Below are positions 1 through 41,903 of a stretch of DNA of 64,000 bases, in pieces. The stretch is taken from positions 163,871 through 227,870 of the forward strand of contig CALSSE010000007.1 of assembly GCA_943788935.1 (NCBI GenBank), read 5' to 3'. A program made the position numbers and the translations under genes. Positions within the stretch are counted from its first letter, which is position 1. Each line of letters begins with the position of its first letter. The DNA is from an uncultured bacterium (GTDB taxonomy: Bacteria > Myxococcota_A > Bradymonadia > UBA7976 > VGTA01). A model generated the notes under the pieces. The model was not told the DNA's origin. It ran no database searches and was given only the letters and a program-made list of their open reading frames with translations.

Positions 1-1297
1 CGAAATTAAGTGTGAAATCATCAATTTGGGGTATCTCTGAATCTCCTGAATAGTTTGTAACTAGTAGAGACCAGCTCCCTTGCAAGTCTCGAGAAGGTTC
101 TCTATTGAGTCGAGTAATATCGTTCCAATCGAGACCGAGCGGTGGTTGTTCTGCTGAGAAGTTATATTGGGCTGAGGTAAGGAGCTCTCCTAGTGGTTCA
201 TCAGTATGAGTGAGCAGGGAATAACGGTCACCATTGGGAGTGACTAAGGTGAGGTCAAGATGATGGATACCCGAAGACAATTCGATGCTTACACTGATCG
301 CTAAAGATTCTAAAACGCCTTGATCAGAGAAGATCACTTGAGCGGCAGTCCACTCTTCACCAGGCGTGACTTGTGTTACATAGTCTTCAGCGGTGAGGCT
401 AATATCAAAGCGATGAGACAAACTACTTGGATCAAAAGGAAGTGGGGGTACGAGCGCTTCATAGACAGGTTGGAAATAGTCATAGATTCCATCGGTATTC
501 TCGTCTAGAGGAGCGCTCTCAGCGCTTAATGGGTCAGTCCCGATGAGTAGCTCAATAAAGTCGAGTGCCCCATCATTATCCATATCTTTGAAGTCGATCG
601 GCCCCACCCATACTCCACTCTCATCGACCAGCGGTGTTGGCTCTGCCATTGGGCTTAAGCGATGAGCGAGTTGGGCGGTGCTAACCGCCGCGAAATGCGC
701 ACGATTGGCCTCTAAGTAGCCAATAATATTCGCTTCATCAGCCTCTAGGCGAGAGGCATTTACCTCACCGGTGGTGGCCACCGCCCCAATCCACTCTCCA
801 TCGGGACTGACAACCTCATCTCCATTCACTTGAATAGAGTTCGTCTCTACAGGGCCTCTCACGCTGAGAGCGACAGCCGCTCTGGGCGTTGAGCCTACCA
901 GCTCTGTGGTAATGACTTCATGATTACCGTTATTATTGAGATCACATTTTGTGAAGAGACTGACACGGCCTATGAAGAGATCAGGGGTGAGAGGGGTTAC
1001 GCCGGCTCCCAAAGTGACCGTAAAGCGTCTATCAATTACACTGACCGTCCTATCTCTCTCTCTAAATAGTGATTCACTTTGTTCATCAAGGAGATCAAAG
1101 GTGCAGTCAATCGTATTGGAGAGCTCCTCGATATTTCCCTCAAGTTGCCCTTGATATCTGAGTAAGAGTGGAGCTGCATCGAGGGTCTGCGCTTGTCCAG
1201 ACGAGGAAGGATGAATAGCTAAGGATACGGTAAGTGTAGCGGTGACTAGTAGGGCTCTTAACCTCTGGGGTGAATAGATGTCTTTCAAAGTGTGCAT
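1..1297 (-). CDS. Partial secreted surface protein with P-domain
   Basis: The frame is open for 432 codons from an ATG at 1297 to the window edge, so the C-terminus lies outside the window. Residues 1-36 form a signal peptide (basic start, hydrophobic LLVTATLTVSLAI, then SGQAQ). Residues ~45-110 (YQGQLEG, FDLLDE, FTVTLGAG) follow a pattern common at the start of tail-fibre-like bacterial surface proteins. Near residue 235, DMDNDGALDFIELL resembles a calcium-binding thrombospondin type 3 or EF-hand loop. Residues ~300-430 look like a proprotein-convertase P (Homo B) domain, with LDLTLVTPNGDRYSLL and LQGSWSLLVTN. P-domains usually sit beside secreted proteases, but no protease domain is visible in the part seen. 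The ribosome site is weak (TAGGAAAA upstream). The reading frame is directly observed; the domain names rest on pattern recognition. Confidence 0.8.
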   Translation of the reverse strand, partial: MHTLKDIYSPQRLRALLVTATLTVSLAIHPSSSGQAQTLDAAPLLLRYQGQLEGNIEELSNTIDCTFDLLDEQSESLFRERDRTVSVIDRRFTVTLGAGVTPLTPDLFIGRVSLFTKCDLNNNGNHEVITTELVGSTPRAAVALSVRGPVETNSIQVNGDEVVSPDGEWIGAVATTGEVNASRLEADEANIIGYLEANRAHFAAVSTAQLAHRLSPMAEPTPLVDESGVWVGPIDFKDMDNDGALDFIELLIGTDPLSAESAPLDENTDGIYDYFQPVYEALVPPLPFDPSSLSHRFDISLTAEDYVTQVTPGEEWTAAQVIFSDQGVLESLAISVSIELSSGIHHLDLTLVTPNGDRYSLLTHTDEPLGELLTSAQYNFSAEQPPLGLDWNDITRLNREPSRDLQGSWSLLVTNYSGDSEIPQIDDFTLNF

Positions 1298-8721: not shown

Positions 8722-10014
8722 ATGAAATTCAACGTTATTTTAACCGTTTTGCTCATTGTTCAAGGAACCGTCTTCCTCTTAGGTAGTGATGGTCAAGAGA
8801 AGGGTCGTCAAATACAAACGATCGCTCATTTAGTGAGTCCTAACACAGTCTTTAAACGCTCACCTAGTGGAGCTGATTTACAGCGTTGGTTTGATAAACG
8901 AGGGGTAAAACCAGGGGAGAGCGCTAGCACATATGAGGTTGAGGCTGACGAGGTGGCTATGGCTCTTAAGTCTCCTAAAGTAGACTTAAACCTTGCTAAT
9001 CGCTTGGAGCTTGCGGCGAGCCTTGAACAGGTTAAGTCTCTTAAGATATCTGAGGAGAGAGACGAGGAGAGCCTCAAAGGGCCGACTTCCGTTACGCTGA
9101 GTCGAGCAGGGAGCGATTGGGTTGTAACCAGCGCTTCATCTTATCCCGCAGAGTCGATTAAGGTCACAAGTATACTCAAAAAAGTCCTTAATGCAGAGCT
9201 GAAAACAGTGATCGCTAGACGACCTGAAAACCATATGAAACTAAACGTCAGCCCGTCGAGCTTTGATCGTTTAGTTGAGATCGTGAGCGTAGAGAATACT
9301 TCGCTTAAGATGTATATAGGGAATGGTAAATCAGGTGCTTTGCATCTAAGAGTCGCCGGTGATGATCGAGTATATAGAGTTCGTGGCATCTCCACGTGGA
9401 GTGATCTCAACGCGAGCTCAACTCGCTTCGTAAAGACCTCTTACTTGAAGGTCGCTGAGGCGAATAAGGTGATGATTCAAGGACCGGGAAGCCGATCTCT
9501 TGAAGTGAGCAAGAGCTCAGATGTTTGGTCAGTGAGAGGAGTTAACGCTGACGACCTTGATCAGGATAAGGCCAAGCGTTTTGTTGATGCCGCTAAAGAG
9601 CTTATCTTAACCAGTGTGGTCGGCAGTGATCTACCTACTTATCAGTCACAATTTAATCAAGGTATCACAGTGGTTGTCAGCTCCGCGAAACAGAGCATCA
9701 CTTATCAATTAGCGGAGACATCCAAGGAAGACTTTATTGCCCACTCCGAACAAAGTCCCTTCATCGTTAAAGTCGCCTCTTATAAAGTCAAGCCACTGCT
9801 CACCCAAAGTTTGGATGACTTCAGGACAGAGGCGTCAAAACAGAGAACTCAGGAGGCAAACCTTGAACGAGTTAAGGTCCCAACAGGGGCCATACCCGCT
9901 TTGGCACCGGCTCTAGCTCCGGCTCCAGCTCCGGCTCCGGCTCCGGCTCCGGCTCCAGCTCCGGCTCCGGCTCCGGCTCCGGCTCCAGCTCCGGCTCCAG
10001 CTCCGGCTCCTTGA
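8722..10014 (+). CDS. DUF4340 protein with Ala-Pro repeat tail
   Basis: This 430-residue protein has an N-terminal hydrophobic anchor (residues ~4-21) and an extracytoplasmic body that fits the DUF4340 family, which commonly follows GldG-like genes. It starts 18 bases after the GldFG stop behind GAAGGGAG, so the three genes look like one operon. Its probable role is as an accessory subunit of that ABC complex on the outer face of the inner membrane. The C-terminus, from about residue 393, is a nearly pure Ala-Pro repeat running to the stop codon, encoded by alternating GCTCCG/GCTCCA units. Such tails form stiff extended rods and can span periplasm or peptidoglycan. The repeat length is likely to vary between strains. 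Confidence 0.85.
   Translation: MKFNVILTVLLIVQGTVFLLGSDGQEKGRQIQTIAHLVSPNTVFKRSPSGADLQRWFDKRGVKPGESASTYEVEADEVAMALKSPKVDLNLANRLELAASLEQVKSLKISEERDEESLKGPTSVTLSRAGSDWVVTSASSYPAESIKVTSILKKVLNAELKTVIARRPENHMKLNVSPSSFDRLVEIVSVENTSLKMYIGNGKSGALHLRVAGDDRVYRVRGISTWSDLNASSTRFVKTSYLKVAEANKVMIQGPGSRSLEVSKSSDVWSVRGVNADDLDQDKAKRFVDAAKELILTSVVGSDLPTYQSQFNQGITVVVSSAKQSITYQLAETSKEDFIAHSEQSPFIVKVASYKVKPLLTQSLDDFRTEASKQRTQEANLERVKVPTGAIPALAPALAPAPAPAPAPAPAPAPAPAPAPAPAPAPAPAP
9906..10012 (+). repeat. 6-bp tandem repeat encoding an Ala-Pro tail
   Basis: Alternating GCTCCG and GCTCCA hexamers fill the last ~110 bases of the DUF4340 gene, giving ~18 Ala-Pro pairs up to the TGA stop. Because the unit is a multiple of three, gain or loss of units changes the tail length without shifting the frame. 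Confidence 0.9.
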
Positions 10015-10053: not shown

Positions 10054-10977
10054 CTATCGCTGTCGAAGTCGATTGAGCACACGAGAGGCGCTCGCTCCAT
10101 AGATACTATGCCAGCGTTTACCTGTGAACCAAAGCCGGTCACGGAGAACGTCATAAGCGACACCATTACTCACTCCAATAAATGCTGTTGATCTGTTCTC
10201 TTCATCGGTCATAAGAGAAGTAAGGTCTAGTTTAGCGATGACTTGGCCTGTTTGTGCGTGAATGACCACGATCTCTGATTCTGGATAAACATTAGCAAAA
10301 ATAAACTCTTCAACCCATTCTAGCTCATTGAGCTGAAAGAGCGGATGTTCTCTTTCATACACGTTGAGCTCTTTTGTGATCTCGATCAAGGGAGTGAGCT
10401 CTCTTTGAGGAGATAGCTCACTCTCTTCGATTGCCGAGGAGAGTGAGTCTTCATCGATCCATCTCAAGGTCGAGGAGCCATCACTGTAGAGGAGACCTCG
10501 CGCAGAGTAACTCATCCCCCACCCCTCGGTTCCGATGGTGAACCGCTTCACTTCAAGACCGCTGAGTGGATCGATGACGAGTAGAGCAAATGATCGCCAT
10601 GTCAGCACTAACAGCCACTGTCTCCACAGAGTACAGCCCTCAGCGAATAGTTGATTCAACGGCCAAGACTCTACACTTCCTAGGACGAGATCTCTCTTGA
10701 TCAGTAATGAGCCATTAACCGATCCTGAGGTTTGCCAGAGTGTGTTAGGGGCTGACCATGCGAGACATTGAGTTGACCAAGAGCGATCATTTGTGATCGT
10801 CTCATCGATAAGCGAGCTGAGCTCTATCACTTTGATCTCAGATGAGGGGAGACGTTCATCATCACAACCCATAGAGGTCAATGTGAGAGTCAAGAAAGTG
10901 AGTGCGTGAACGAGTGAACGGTAGCGGTAAGGATGGATAGAAGAGACGCGAAGAGAGTTTTCATTCTTGTCTCTCAT
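10054..10977 (-). CDS. Lipoprotein glutaminyl-peptide cyclotransferase
   Basis: This 307-residue protein matches the plant/bacterial-type glutamine cyclotransferase family, a beta-propeller enzyme that converts N-terminal Gln of peptides to pyroglutamate. Telling segments are TEGWGMSY, SDGSSTLRWID, LNELEWVEEFIFANVYP, TGQVIAKLDLTSL and NGVAYDVLRDRLWFTGKRW. The N-terminus has a long basic lead, a hydrophobic run and lipobox TSMGC with Cys38, so it should be an exported lipoprotein. It lies 65 bases downstream of a sigma-factor gene on the same strand. Its start codon is the last ATG of a 14-bp tandem repeat that makes two short start-stop reading frames ahead of it. The reaction is assigned from family resemblance only. 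Confidence 0.85.
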   Translation of the reverse strand: MRDKNENSLRVSSIHPYRYRSLVHALTFLTLTLTSMGCDDERLPSSEIKVIELSSLIDETITNDRSWSTQCLAWSAPNTLWQTSGSVNGSLLIKRDLVLGSVESWPLNQLFAEGCTLWRQWLLVLTWRSFALLVIDPLSGLEVKRFTIGTEGWGMSYSARGLLYSDGSSTLRWIDEDSLSSAIEESELSPQRELTPLIEITKELNVYEREHPLFQLNELEWVEEFIFANVYPESEIVVIHAQTGQVIAKLDLTSLMTDEENRSTAFIGVSNGVAYDVLRDRLWFTGKRWHSIYGASASRVLNRLRQR

Positions 10978-11007
10978 CTCTTGTCTCTCATCTCTTGTCT
11001 CTCATCT
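10966..11007 (-). repeat. Three 14-bp repeats forming an ATG/TGA ladder
   Basis: Three exact 14-bp copies (AGATGAGAGACAAG on the minus strand) span the glutaminyl cyclase start. Each copy carries an ATG. The first two ATGs (11005 and 10991) each encode MRDKR followed by TGA, and each TGA overlaps the next ATG as ATGA. The third ATG (10977) begins the main gene, which reads MRDKNENS. No strong Shine-Dalgarno site lies before the first copy. Confidence 0.9.
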
Positions 11008-11042
11008 CTCGAGATCTAGACCGATGGTGACTCGAGTATTTA

Positions 11043-11657
11043 CTATGCTGAATGAGGAGGGTTTTTGAGAGCTTTCTCAATCTTGGCGCGGATTCTCTTG
11101 ATTCGAGCTCTAATGGCGGTCGGCGTCACTCGTTCGTTGATCGCCTCTTCTGCGACAGACCAGCTTGCTGTCAGCATACGCTTTAACATAGCTTGCTCGC
11201 TTTTAGAGATCAAATCTTGGATCATTGACAGCTGGTCACGAGCCTCGATCTCTCTGAGTATATTAGGGGAGACTTGCTCTTCCATATTACGAGTGACTCC
11301 TGGCACGTAGTAATGGGCGTCAATGAGGCTATGTTTGTTCGTTCTATAAAGTTCATCCAGTGAGAAATTATGAACCATACGAGCAATGTATTTAATGAGC
11401 TTAAAACTCGGGTCTTGAATATTTAGTCGATGCATCTTTCCGGGGAGTTTTTTTGCATAAAATTCTTGGACGACATCAACTGCGACATAACGATTATTGA
11501 AGACAGCACGGGCGATGTGTAGCCAGCGTTGTTCATGAGCGATGATTTCATGGATCACATATTTACAATGAGAGCAATCAGTCACCTCAGGGTGATCTAA
11601 GCAATGAGTAGGTTTGGAGATTGTGTGAGCGTGAAGACGTTTTCTTTGTCGGGTCAT
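11043..11657 (-). CDS. Sigma-70-family (ECF-like) RNA polymerase factor
   Basis: This 204-residue protein has a sigma region 2 at about residues 40-110 (HIARAVFNNRYVAVDVVQEFY) and a region 4 helix-turn-helix at ~145-200 (SKSEQAMLKRML to AIRARIKRIRAKIEKAL). Both regions are fairly divergent, so promoter choice cannot be predicted. The N-terminal extension holds His18, Cys19, His22, Cys28 and Cys31, spaced like a small metal site that might act as a sensor. No anti-sigma gene lies next to it. The following gene on this strand is the glutaminyl cyclase. A putative promoter and a C9 tract lie upstream. The ATG is not preceded by a clear ribosome site. Confidence 0.75.
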   Translation of the reverse strand: MTRQRKRLHAHTISKPTHCLDHPEVTDCSHCKYVIHEIIAHEQRWLHIARAVFNNRYVAVDVVQEFYAKKLPGKMHRLNIQDPSFKLIKYIARMVHNFSLDELYRTNKHSLIDAHYYVPGVTRNMEEQVSPNILREIEARDQLSMIQDLISKSEQAMLKRMLTASWSVAEEAINERVTPTAIRARIKRIRAKIEKALKNPPHSA

Positions 11658-11756
11658 GTAGCCTCTAGAGTCAATGGAATAAGCAGATGAGTAGAGAGGT
11701 GGGGAGTAAGGAGCCTAGGATCAAAGGAACGCGGGGAGGACAAGAAGAGCGTTTCT

Positions 11757-11765
11757 GGGGGGGGG
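11757..11765 (-). repeat. C9 tract in the sigma-factor leader
   Basis: Nine G on the plus strand (nine C in the sigma-factor transcript) lie between the putative promoter and the start codon, about 100 bases before the ATG. A length change here would alter the leader but not the protein. Confidence 0.85.
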
Positions 11766-11782
11766 TAGGGAGGGGTGAGTTA

Positions 11783-11812
11783 TTGATATCTTATTGGTCG
11801 AGTGTCTGTCAA
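11783..11812 (-). promoter_or_regulatory. Putative sigma-70 promoter of the sigma-factor gene
   Basis: On the minus strand a consensus -35 hexamer TTGACA (11807-11812) is followed after 18 bases by TATCAA (11783-11788), a 4 of 6 match to the -10 consensus. The sequence just upstream of the -35 (11811-11850) is A/T-rich like an UP element. The leader would be about 120 bases long and carry the C9 tract. Confidence 0.4.
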
Positions 11813-12051
11813 ATTATTTTTAGATTTATTTAGATTTTAAGTAATAATGGTAATAAAGTCTGTCGAATTACGATGACTTATGCATGATGCTTTGTATGGT
11901 TTATCCAGTGTTGTCTATTTTTGATAATTTCAGCAATTTTAAGTGAAAATACTTTATGACTATATAACTGTTATATATAGCTTATGTTAGGTATTGTAGA
12001 TTATAGAAAATAAAGAGTGACAAGAGCACGATTGGGCATTTTATCCAATCA

Positions 12052-12446: not shown

Positions 12447-13049
12447 TTGAAGTATTTGCTTATGTCTTGCTCACATCGTGTAAACAGTGAGTCTCTCAAG
12501 GTCACTCAGCATCTTAAGCGATCTCTCGAACGGAGAGGTCATGAGGTTAAGTTACATGATTGCGGTGCTTATCCCTTACCGCTTTGGGACCCTGATGAGC
12601 GAGGAGACCATTGGCCAACATGGCAGGCCCTTAAGCCTGAGTTGAAGAGCTGTGAAGGCTTGATATTGGTCACGCCTGAGTGGCACGGGATGGCTACCCC
12701 TCAAGCTAAAAACTTCTTCTTATTAGCAGGTTCAAGCCCACTAGCACATAAAGCAGGCTTAATCGTCTCTGTCAGCGCAGGGAGAGGTGGAGCGTACCCT
12801 ATCGCGGAACTGAGGCTCTCCTCCTACAAGAACAGTAAGCTCTCTTGGATTCCTGAGCATCTCATCATCCGACAGGTAGAGAGTGTGCTCAACGAAGAGG
12901 AGACTCTGTCAGAGATCACGAAGTCTAATGAGAAGTGGATACGTGATCGAATCGATCATACACTTGAGCAACTAGAGCTCTATACGGAGGCGCTAAACTC
13001 TATTAGAGATCGCATTCCTCATGACTCTCGCTTTGGGTCGGGTATGTGA
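12447..13049 (+). CDS. NADPH-dependent FMN reductase-family protein
   Basis: This 200-residue protein has the flavodoxin-like fold of NAD(P)H-dependent FMN reductases. The phosphate-binding loop is SHRVNSESLKV near the N-terminus, and TPEWHGMATPQAKNFF at about residue 75 is the family's flavin-contact segment (usually TPEYNxSxPxxLKN). It probably reduces flavin or quinone-like substrates in the cytoplasm. It starts with TTG at 12447; an AAGAGGAG ribosome site 6 bases upstream supports that codon. It converges on the repeat-tailed protein, with only 4 bases between the two stop codons and no terminator. Confidence 0.85.
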   Translation: MKYLLMSCSHRVNSESLKVTQHLKRSLERRGHEVKLHDCGAYPLPLWDPDERGDHWPTWQALKPELKSCEGLILVTPEWHGMATPQAKNFFLLAGSSPLAHKAGLIVSVSAGRGGAYPIAELRLSSYKNSKLSWIPEHLIIRQVESVLNEEETLSEITKSNEKWIRDRIDHTLEQLELYTEALNSIRDRIPHDSRFGSGM

Positions 13050-13053
13050 AGAC

Positions 13054-13470
13054 TTACGCTTCAGCAGCAACTACAGAGGACTCAGCAGAGCCCTCGGTTG
13101 ACTCAGCAGAGCCCTCGGTTGACTCAGCAGCGCCCTCGGTTGACTCAGCAGCGCCCTCGGTTGACTCAGCAGAGCCCTCGGTTGACTCAGCAGAGCCCTC
13201 GGTTGACTCAGCGCCCTTCTCTTCATCATTGCGGTCACGCTTACGAGGGCGTCGATCATTACTTCGCGTCTCGGCGACATACACTTCGAGGCTACCTCCA
13301 TTATATGTCATAGAGATCGTTGAGCTAGCGTTTTCATCGACGCTATCAACATTTACGCTCATAGGGACGTCATTACTCTTTGTCTTGGCGAATGCTACAG
13401 CCTCAGCACGACCTTCGATGACGGTCTCTTCATCTCCCCAGGTAATCTTGAAGTTTGTTGGCTCGGTCAT
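13054..13470 (-). CDS. Acidic protein with AESTEG tandem repeat tail
   Basis: This 138-residue protein begins with a compact domain of ~70 residues (FKITWGDEETVIEGRAEAVA, ISMTYNGGSLEVYVAE), then a charged linker (RPRKRDRNDEE), then six copies of a seven-residue AESTEGS/A repeat and a short end. An excellent ribosome site (GGAGGAG) precedes the ATG, which supports this strand over the overlapping plus-strand frame. There is no signal peptide or membrane segment, so it is probably cytoplasmic. I do not recognise the N-terminal domain. Confidence 0.7.
   Translation of the reverse strand: MTEPTNFKITWGDEETVIEGRAEAVAFAKTKSNDVPMSVNVDSVDENASSTISMTYNGGSLEVYVAETRSNDRRPRKRDRNDEEKGAESTEGSAESTEGSAESTEGAAESTEGAAESTEGSAESTEGSAESSVVAAEA
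13079..13213. repeat. 21-bp tandem repeat, six copies plus a part
   Basis: Six copies of a 21-bp unit (13079-13204) and a partial seventh make up the 3' half of the acidic-protein gene, differing only at one AGA/AGC position. The unit is a multiple of three and lacks stops in several frames, which explains the long frames on the opposite strand. Confidence 0.95.
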
Positions 13471-13566
13471 CTTTATCTCCTCCGGTTATATATGAGAAAT
13501 AGACCGTCTGAGTAAGATTGTTCACCTACGTTTGTCAAGGATAACTCACTGAAGTCTGCACAAAGA

Positions 13567-19038: not shown

Positions 19039-19089
19039 TCTCCACGTTTGTGTTCCATGTTTGTGCTCCATATGTATACACAAGAATGT

Positions 19090-40681: not shown

Positions 40682-41854
40682 TTGGAGAGCTATGACTCAG
40701 ACTTGGAAGCTGATGATACTCGTTGGGTACACATCGCTCACAGAGCGTTAGATCGCCTTATGGAGCTCAGCTCATTGGAGGAGCTCCGCGCGCTGAGAGT
40801 TAGCGTTGACTTTGATCATCCCCAAGAGCTCGAGAGAGCTTTAGAGAGTCTCAAGCAGATTATACAGCGTAACGCTTTGCAGCTGTGTTTACTACAGGTT
40901 AAGTATAAGCCCACTACCCTCACTGCTGAGGCGAGGGCTCTCCATGAGGCCTTCGCGAGAGACTACTCGGAGGTCTCGACCTATCTCCCTCTTTGTCTCC
41001 CCCCCTCGCCTCTAGGGGATCAAGTACAGTGGTCGAGTCCTGAGGCTTGTGAGCAATGTATCTTCTTTGAGGCGCGACGCTGTGGAGGGCTCACTGGAGA
41101 GGAGTGGAGCTCGGCGCCTCAAGCGCGAGGAGAGCTCGCTGGGGGGGCGCTCTCCCCCACTTGGCCTTCAGAGTGGCCTCTCGCTTTCTCCAGAGATGAC
41201 ATTATGGGAGATCCTCCCGTTTGTTATTGGTGGCCTTCACCCCCTCTCATGAAGCGTATGGGAGGGTTGCTAGGCGCATATAATATCAGTCAATTATGGG
41301 ACATTGGTGGGGGGAATGGCTTCTTATCTTGGCTCTTTAAGCGTTCTTGTGCGACTCTCAATGAGTCACTGAATGTCGACCCGGTAGCCGAGATTTACCC
41401 TCAGCCAGAAGGGGTACTTAGCCTCCCGGTAACAGCAGAGGAGGGCTTAGCGCGTATCAGATCTGGTCAGCTCACTTCTCCTGACGCAGTCTTGGTCTCA
41501 TGGCCGACAATGGGAGAGTCCTATCGTGAGATTCTCCGAGAGCTCAATCCACGAGTCATTATACGCGCTACCGATGAGGAGGGCGTCTGTGGGGTGAGGC
41601 GGGGTCATCGCGCTTTAGTCATAAAGGGAGGGAGCGCTAGTGTATTCGCACTCGCCGAATCGATGGAGTCTATCCAAGGTGAAGACCCACTGCGGCTGAC
41701 TACTTATGATGACCTCGAGCCTCCGCTTGGGTATCAGTTGATCCTCAGTGAGTCGGTGTGGGGTTATAGAGACGTTAAAAGAGGGCTGACATCACCTTCT
41801 GGTCGTGTTGTGGTTTTTGCACAGAGACCTCTTAAAGACAGAGAGCCCTCTTAA
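40682..41854 (+). CDS. Unknown protein with methyltransferase-like loop
   Basis: This 390-residue protein starts with TTG at 40682, 9 bases after the phosphorylase stop, without a clear ribosome site, so the start is uncertain. Residues ~200-225 contain LWDIGGGNGFLSWLF, which resembles the SAM-binding glycine loop of Rossmann methyltransferases. Near residue 123, CEQCIFFEARRC is a compact cysteine cluster that could bind metal. There is no signal peptide or membrane segment. The last codons and stop lie in a 19-bp tandem repeat. Function is unknown; a methyltransferase is only a suggestion. Confidence 0.65.
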   Translation: MESYDSDLEADDTRWVHIAHRALDRLMELSSLEELRALRVSVDFDHPQELERALESLKQIIQRNALQLCLLQVKYKPTTLTAEARALHEAFARDYSEVSTYLPLCLPPSPLGDQVQWSSPEACEQCIFFEARRCGGLTGEEWSSAPQARGELAGGALSPTWPSEWPLAFSRDDIMGDPPVCYWWPSPPLMKRMGGLLGAYNISQLWDIGGGNGFLSWLFKRSCATLNESLNVDPVAEIYPQPEGVLSLPVTAEEGLARIRSGQLTSPDAVLVSWPTMGESYREILRELNPRVIIRATDEEGVCGVRRGHRALVIKGGSASVFALAESMESIQGEDPLRLTTYDDLEPPLGYQLILSESVWGYRDVKRGLTSPSGRVVVFAQRPLKDREPS

Positions 41855-41897
41855 AGACAGAGAGCCCTCTTAAAGACAGAGAGCCCTCTTAAAGACA
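41829..41897. repeat. 19-bp tandem repeat over a stop codon
   Basis: Three complete copies of CTCTTAAAGACAGAGAGCC and a partial fourth run from the end of the unknown gene (stop TAA at 41852-41854 in copy two) to just before the stop of the convergent beta-barrel gene. The unit is not a multiple of three. Confidence 0.95.
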
Positions 41898-41903
41898 GCT
41901 ACC

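Follow-up and report, generated by a model that had tools for sequence, protein, structure and literature searches.

Tandem start-stop repeats ahead of a glutaminyl cyclase gene in an uncultured bacterium: a possible chain of translational reinitiation

Introduction

Repeat contingency genes of the Haemophilus type carry tandem repeats near the start, where several ATGs lie in different frames, and changes in these repeats switch the frame of the protein; in the window, as we call the whole stretch of 64,000 nucleotides that was analysed, from an uncultured bacterium related to myxobacteria, a glutaminyl cyclase gene is likewise preceded by start codons within tandem repeats, but its protein does not depend on their copy number.

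Several described systems share single features with this locus, and they are compared here as far as excerpts of the cited reports describe them. Overlapping gene pairs have the same 4-nt ATGA overlaps of stop and start (PMC6728339, PMC10666635). In reporter work, the 4-nt overlap favours termination-reinitiation and is the commonest coupling distance, and in native pairs of E. coli and Haloferax reinitiation was steeply distance-dependent and worked best at short overlaps, with the upstream gene's final 15 nt being enough for it (PMC10666635). The upstream frame of such pairs, however, is a real gene, whereas those ahead of the cyclase gene are identical five-codon tandem repeats, chained at least two deep (PMC6728339, PMC10666635). 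The mg2 minigene of axe-txe is similar in that a very short leader ORF acts in cis and the distance to the next start matters; as portrayed in the excerpt, mg2 has two codons and its own Shine-Dalgarno (SD) sequence, lies 15 nt from the gene and is unrepeated, whereas the frames ahead of the cyclase gene lack an SD, overlap and are repeated (PMC8708949). In the pil1 leader of Streptococcus gallolyticus, the number of GCAGA repeats ahead of the gene also acts via leader translation, but these repeats extend a single leader peptide and exert their effect through a terminator (PMC3894217); no terminator-like site was found at 10900-11900 of the window. The TAACTGA heptamers of Beggiatoaceae are intergenic repeats that likewise abut the starts of genes mostly devoid of an SD; they are one dispersed sequence and offer stops but no ATG, whereas the units of ladders carry starts and differ from gene to gene (PMC4679880). 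Single minigenes such as that of axe-txe (PMC8708949) and repeat-containing leader peptides such as that of pil1 (PMC3894217) are, on these excerpts, the nearest experimental precedents. Among the literature matches listed, no title or opening of an abstract describes a tandem start-stop ladder.

Organization of the Array and Its Gene

A 14-nt tandem array spans the start codon of the cyclase gene (Table 1). Read across the start, the minus strand runs ...GATCTCGAGAG, then ATGAGAGACAAGAG, ATGAGAGACAAGAG and ATGAGAGACAAGAATGAA..., with GAGAG directly preceding the first ATGAGAGACAAGAG unit. The original prediction, made from the sequence of the window, described 14-bp copies that each supply an ATG in a different frame, and this agrees with the sequence, in which the three rungs begin at 11005, 10991 and 10977 on the minus strand. 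The two upper frames read MRDKR-stop, as had been stated, and computation of both junctions gave the same 4-nt overlap (ATGA), in which the TGA of rung 1 meets the ATG of rung 2 and the TGA of rung 2 meets the ATG of the main gene. The third copy was correctly taken to open a predicted lipoprotein gene, a 307-aa ORF from 10977 with a conserved Cys38. It had also been argued that gain or loss of a copy leaves the protein the same, and this follows from the sequence logic, because each copy brings a start and a stop of its own and the gene always starts from the final one.

Table 1. Location and content of the array, its neighbourhood and the other ladders.
Feature	Locus	Coordinates	Strand	Content or basis
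14-nt tandem array over start codon	Window	10961..11009	-	TRF: 3.6 copies, 97% matches
Rung 1, mini-ORF ATG AGA GAC AAG AGA TGA (MRDKR-stop)	Window	10988..11005	-	Sequence
Rung 2, mini-ORF same as rung 1 (MRDKR-stop)	Window	10974..10991	-	Sequence
Rung 3, main gene start, 307-aa ORF	Window	10054..10977	-	ORF list, PF05096 match
Upstream co-directed ORF, 204 aa, perhaps sigma-factor-like	Window	11043..11657	-	ORF list
G000 ladder 1	Window cyclase			MRDKR-stop frames
G000 ladder 2	L111			MS-stop frames before ORF with hydrophobic N-terminus (by eye); length uncertain, partly N
G001 ladder 1	Cyclase			MRHL-stop frames
G001 ladder 2	L105			MMSKT-stop/MMSEK-stop frames before CxxCxxCC-domain gene
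Further G000 ladder	L177, contig C4	1470-1546		MRHL-, MRHQ- and MRHQ-stop frames, 1-nt overlaps
Survey ladder	L189	1501-1574		Aldehyde dehydrogenase to BMC shell protein; five MRRIV-stop mini-ORFs, 4-nt overlaps
Survey ladder	L186			253-aa upstream ORF without Pfam match to acyltransferase
Survey ladder	L193			318-aa upstream ORF to probable lipoprotein
Survey ladder	L178 (G002, other genus of the family)	1093-1179		Seven rungs, MSERA/MSEIA-stop

Both junctions fit the geometry of coupled pairs, in which a stop shares 4 or 1 nt with the next start or is at most a few nucleotides away from it, and the mini-ORFs, at 18 nt, are longer than the 15 nt of upstream gene published as sufficient. No SD 4-mer precedes any of the three rungs, on which ground a regulatory minigene with its own ribosome binding site was rejected. 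Across the 5.95 Mb genome, a search that tolerated as many as three mismatches placed the 28-nt double unit at the array site only, and a dispersed repeat family was accordingly dismissed. Between 10900 and 11900 there are no terminator-like sites, which led us to reject leader-peptide attenuation, and folding of the leaders is unremarkable (z -0.78 and +1.31), which speaks against a special RNA structure. Three promoter-like matches, compared with a mean of 1.7 in shuffles, are all distant from the array; no sigma-70-like promoter match was found near the array upstream, the closest on the minus strand ending at 11493.

The main ORF matches PF05096 (Glu_cyclase_2) in Pfam with an E-value of 6.3e-45 and 154 bits, against a cut-off of 22.3. 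The protein has an N-terminal signal, and Cys38 is nearly invariant in an alignment of 11 sequences; both features fit a predicted lipoprotein. By eye, the N-terminal region contains no alternative ATG, GTG or TTG that preserves the signal peptide, and the last rung is the likely start for that reason. The 204-aa ORF upstream has no Pfam match of its own and shares 50% identity with the ORF that precedes the orthologue in the sibling genome described below, for which matches to Sigma70_r4_2 and r2 were both sub-threshold. Its stop is separated from rung 1 by 37 nt; since this gap exceeds the published distances, coupling from the 204-aa ORF to rung 1 is not expected. Downstream of the cyclase gene, a gene on the opposite strand ends at 10014.

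Other repeats were seen in the window. Positions 9903-10010 hold a coding (AP)n repeat at the tail end of a DUF4340 protein, 13046-13495 a 21-nt coding repeat with several frames open on both strands, and 41823-41898 a 19-nt array outside ORFs (4.0 copies, 98% by TRF), which is one of very many in the genus. On the minus strand at 19071-19020, ahead of a 287-aa ORF, four 13-nt units open with ATG, ATG, GTG and GTG at 19071, 19058, 19045 and 19032, respectively; read by eye, the opening ATG and the final GTG share a frame, and the two copies between them close as MEHKRGE-stop and a seven-codon frame.

The Orthologous Ladder in the Sibling Genome

Searches returned a sole other genome of the genus (G001), which is compared here with the window's genome (G000). 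The cyclase gene and the upstream ORF are adjacent in G001 as in the window, and the two cyclases are 42% identical (135/322 columns). The intergenic region of G001 contains an array with a 15-nt unit, ATGCGACACTTGTAA; ACACTTGTAAATGCG is repeated 5.3 times. This array forms a ladder of five rungs, four of which are ATG CGA CAC TTG TAA (MRHL-stop); every TAA abuts the following ATG with a 0-nt gap, and the fifth ATG opens the gene (MRHWPP...). The two arrays thus differ in period (14 versus 15) and in sequence, yet they share the same logic: every copy combines an ATG with a stop codon that runs into the following ATG, and the gene begins at the final copy. In a test of common descent, the two units matched at 5/11 positions after the ATG (p 0.15). 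The original prediction had counted conservation of a different start codon in homologues against any relevance of the ladder; the sibling does start at another codon, although there too the final rung of a ladder serves as the start.

The cluster of the window protein comprises 5 member sequences on 3 contigs. A protein query against genome contigs, from which near records may be left out, returned no further related locus; an alignment query returned the contig with the G001 gene and four distant homologues, and no related locus was found among viral contigs. The nearest other proteins (P0002-P0008) are 39-44% identical to the window cyclase, and P0121 is 38% identical to the G001 cyclase. 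P0006 is 87% identical to the G001 cyclase and has a predicted start inside the signal peptide (MISCDSD...), which looks as if a start further upstream lay in another frame or had been truncated away.

Frequency and Conservation of Ladders in the Two Genomes

Ladders were sought in samples of 1.64 Mb from G000 and 0.97 Mb from G001, which contain approximately 1020 and 644 ORFs, respectively, of 100 aa or longer. Two scans, one by exact match and the other tolerant and based on TRF, looked for starts that follow two or more copies of themselves in closed frames. The tolerant scan, which required that the gene start with ATG, that the ORF reach 80 aa and that its start be the last rung, kept two ladders per genome sample and is not exhaustive (Table 1). 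It left out two rows of a single coding repeat (L125), and the exact-match scan left out rows of two copies and of coding repeats (window 19032, L041, L120, L125 and L135). Another ladder inside the G000 sample, L177, was missed because its last rung is a short frame; this final frame of 11 codons overlaps a DUF2071 gene by 4 nt. Tandem arrays numbered 368 in the G000 sample, of which 97 lay outside ORFs and 62 at ORF starts (159 together), and 203 in the G001 sample, with 59 outside ORFs and 30 at ORF starts (89 together). Tandem arrays as such are very common in the window's genome; start ladders are rare.

Some resemblances among these arrays were also observed. The peptide MRHL is common to the L177 ladder and the cyclase ladder of G001, and the 14-nt unit of L177 matches that of the window at 8/11 positions after the ATG (p 0.002, uncorrected for 15 comparisons). 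A looser MRH-type pattern was found only on C12 of G001 and C4 of G000, among three genomes. Immediately before the L111 ladder, at L111:4222-4348, lies a 16-nt array of 7.9 perfect copies, each unit of which holds GTG ACT CTC TAG, a three-codon frame.

Conservation was assessed at three orthologue groups, and a ladder is common to both siblings in one of them, that of the cyclase. In G001, the gene beside the L111 neighbour, matched by position, has no ladder and starts ATGTCCGCAAAG. The orthologue of L105 in G000 has no ladder either; its start follows a GAGGAG motif, and a 16-nt array is present further upstream. The DUF2071 gene of L177 had no match in G001. The chance of a ladder at a given G001 orthologue is about 2/644 = 0.003, or 0.009 over the three groups, and both values are lower bounds because the scan missed L177. 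Set against chance, the shared cyclase ladder is suggestive and not overwhelming.

Junction Stops and Shine-Dalgarno Motifs

As a null, three-copy duplications of 10-20 nt were simulated over real ATG starts (591 in G000 and 378 in G001). By arithmetic, 64-66% of the 14-nt duplications close the upper frame at the junction, compared with 18-19% of the 15-nt duplications, the remainder of which are in-frame extensions, and only 8-12% of those of 13 and 16 nt. In all four sampled ladders the upper frames close at the junction (overlap 4, gap 5, gap 0 and overlap 4), which is expected with p ~0.27 given their periods, the 15-nt case being counted as 1 because the scan excluded in-frame ladders. 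Junction stops are largely arithmetic and so do not prove selection, and with 64-66% of simulated 14-nt duplications giving this geometry, we rejected it as a sign of selection.

An SD-like 4-mer was found 16-5 nt before 52% of the ATG-start ORFs in both genomes and in 3-13% of cases at shifted positions. In contrast, not one of the 14 rungs that make up the four sampled ladders is preceded by such a 4-mer (p ~0.05 for four genes). This absence is not universal, as L189, a ladder from the survey described below, has GAGG at 5/6 rungs. The array may have displaced the SD at ladders, or coupling may replace it.

Ladders Across the Phylum

Two patterns were searched in 377 genomes of the phylum. 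TAAATG repeated three times at 15-nt spacing occurred in one genome, at the G001 cyclase only, with 2/377 for the backwards control. ATGA repeated four times at 14-nt spacing was found in 38 genomes, against 14 for its backwards control (counted by eye); within G001, the control outnumbers the pattern by 11 matches to 3. One place was cut out in each of 30 of the 38 matching genomes, and at 10 of the 30 places the frame that begins at the last rung is 80 codons or longer. The 4-nt overlap of such cases is largely by design, because the search pattern itself demanded ATGA.

Seven of the ten, together with L177, were scanned against Pfam, with L174, L175 and L190 left out. Two of the seven last-rung frames scored above the cut-off: that of L186 is an acyltransferase, and that of L189 a BMC shell protein. 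L193 and L178 fell below it and are probable genes; the last-rung frames of L191, L192 and L196 had no Pfam family and were not counted as genes. The 365-codon open frame that follows the L178 ladder has a weak P450 match below the cut-off and runs off the locus. In L186, L189 and L193, the stop of an upstream ORF overlaps rung 1 by 4 nt, as it likewise does in L190, and the repeat unit of L189 consists of the last codons of the aldehyde dehydrogenase gene. A stop-start junction was multiplied in L186, L189 and L193, where any coupling must pass three to five mini-ORFs. The cyclase ladder of the window belongs to a small class that recurs. The claim of the original prediction that no case of this form had been described holds for the literature, among the matches listed by title and opening of abstract, but not for genomes, in which further cases were found.

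Discussion

The most likely account of the locus is that the start-spanning array works, at least passively, as a reinitiation chain. Judging from the arrangement of starts and stops, ribosomes that start on an upper copy would be handed from rung to rung to the cyclase gene by termination-reinitiation, and to this we tentatively give close to an even chance. Ribosomes would begin at the upper rungs, reinitiate at each overlapping ATGA and so reach the gene; as the 18-nt mini-ORFs and the 4-nt overlaps agree with the published lengths and distances, those entering rung 1 or 2 should be passed on. An added rung would change the yield and not the protein, which would make copy number a silent rheostat, and slippage or tandem duplication is the probable origin of the array, at no cost to the protein. 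Multi-step reinitiation should, moreover, lose ribosomes at each rung, which could turn the ladder into a brake. The original suggestion that ribosomes step down the ladder thus gains from the 4-nt geometry and from the sibling's own ladder, but it is weakened in that junction stops are largely arithmetic and arrays are common.

These last two facts lie at the heart of the neutral explanation, which comes close behind the reinitiation chain and which we regard as quite possible: the genus gathers short arrays outside genes, and one that happens to span a start leaves the protein intact, its upper ATGs being little used and of no consequence. The abundance of arrays outside ORFs or at ORF starts in both samples, the simulated null, in which most 14-nt duplications yield junction stops, and the two other ladder genes, whose counterparts in the sibling start without a ladder, are all consistent with it. 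What it accounts for poorly is a ladder at the orthologous start of a protein that is only 42% identical, which is unlikely by chance (~0.003-0.009, as lower bounds); a neutral three-copy array should not persist for so long, and its re-forming at the same gene would be a coincidence. Initiation at the upper rungs may, alternatively, be unproductive. The mini-ORFs would then be decoys that catch ribosomes which drop off, as in the minigene effect, with each copy lowering expression of the gene. Very short ORFs do cause peptidyl-tRNA drop-off and alter expression of the next gene, according to an excerpt of the axe-txe report (PMC8708949), and initiation at rungs without an SD would be weak; the 4-nt overlap, or the abutting stop in G001, nevertheless favours reinitiation over loss, and we consider such a decoy improbable.

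Less probable again, and by a clear step, is a leader of no relevance, either because the transcript starts at or below rung 2 or because SD-independent initiation on a purine-rich leader occurs at the last ATG alone. The three rungs each follow purine-rich sequence and lack an SD, and there is no sigma-70-like promoter match close upstream, all of which would suit this explanation, but it leaves the sibling's ladder unexplained, and the upper ATGs share their local sequence with the last one and would be equally usable if transcribed. A contingency locus, in which slippage changes the copy number and switches the gene ON or OFF between frames, is brought to mind by a short and nearly perfect array whose unit is not a multiple of three, yet we find it scarcely credible. 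With an ATG in every copy, the last of which always opens the gene, the frame is the same at any copy number, and the 15-nt unit of G001 with its stop per copy cannot switch frame either; phase variation by frame switching was rejected on this sequence logic.

Beyond the single locus, the reinitiation chain may be extended to a general proposal, which we hold to be doubtful, that start-stop ladders are a sequence-independent translational device and that the chain at the cyclase gene of this genus was kept while its unit changed (14-nt MRDKR versus 15-nt MRHL). Short tandem duplications that span a start codon, or the junction of a coupled stop and start, would create chains of mini-ORFs for ribosomes to descend by reinitiation, and the chain at the cyclase gene would act as a rheostat set by copy number while the protein stays unchanged. 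Near bacterial starts, tandem repeats are usually taken as ON/OFF frame switches or as promoter spacing elements. A start and a stop in each unit follow a different logic, in which copy number is free to vary and could tune expression stepwise. Because natural chains of three to six rungs precede Pfam-supported genes, such ladders would also make it testable how many successive reinitiations a bacterial ribosome can perform.
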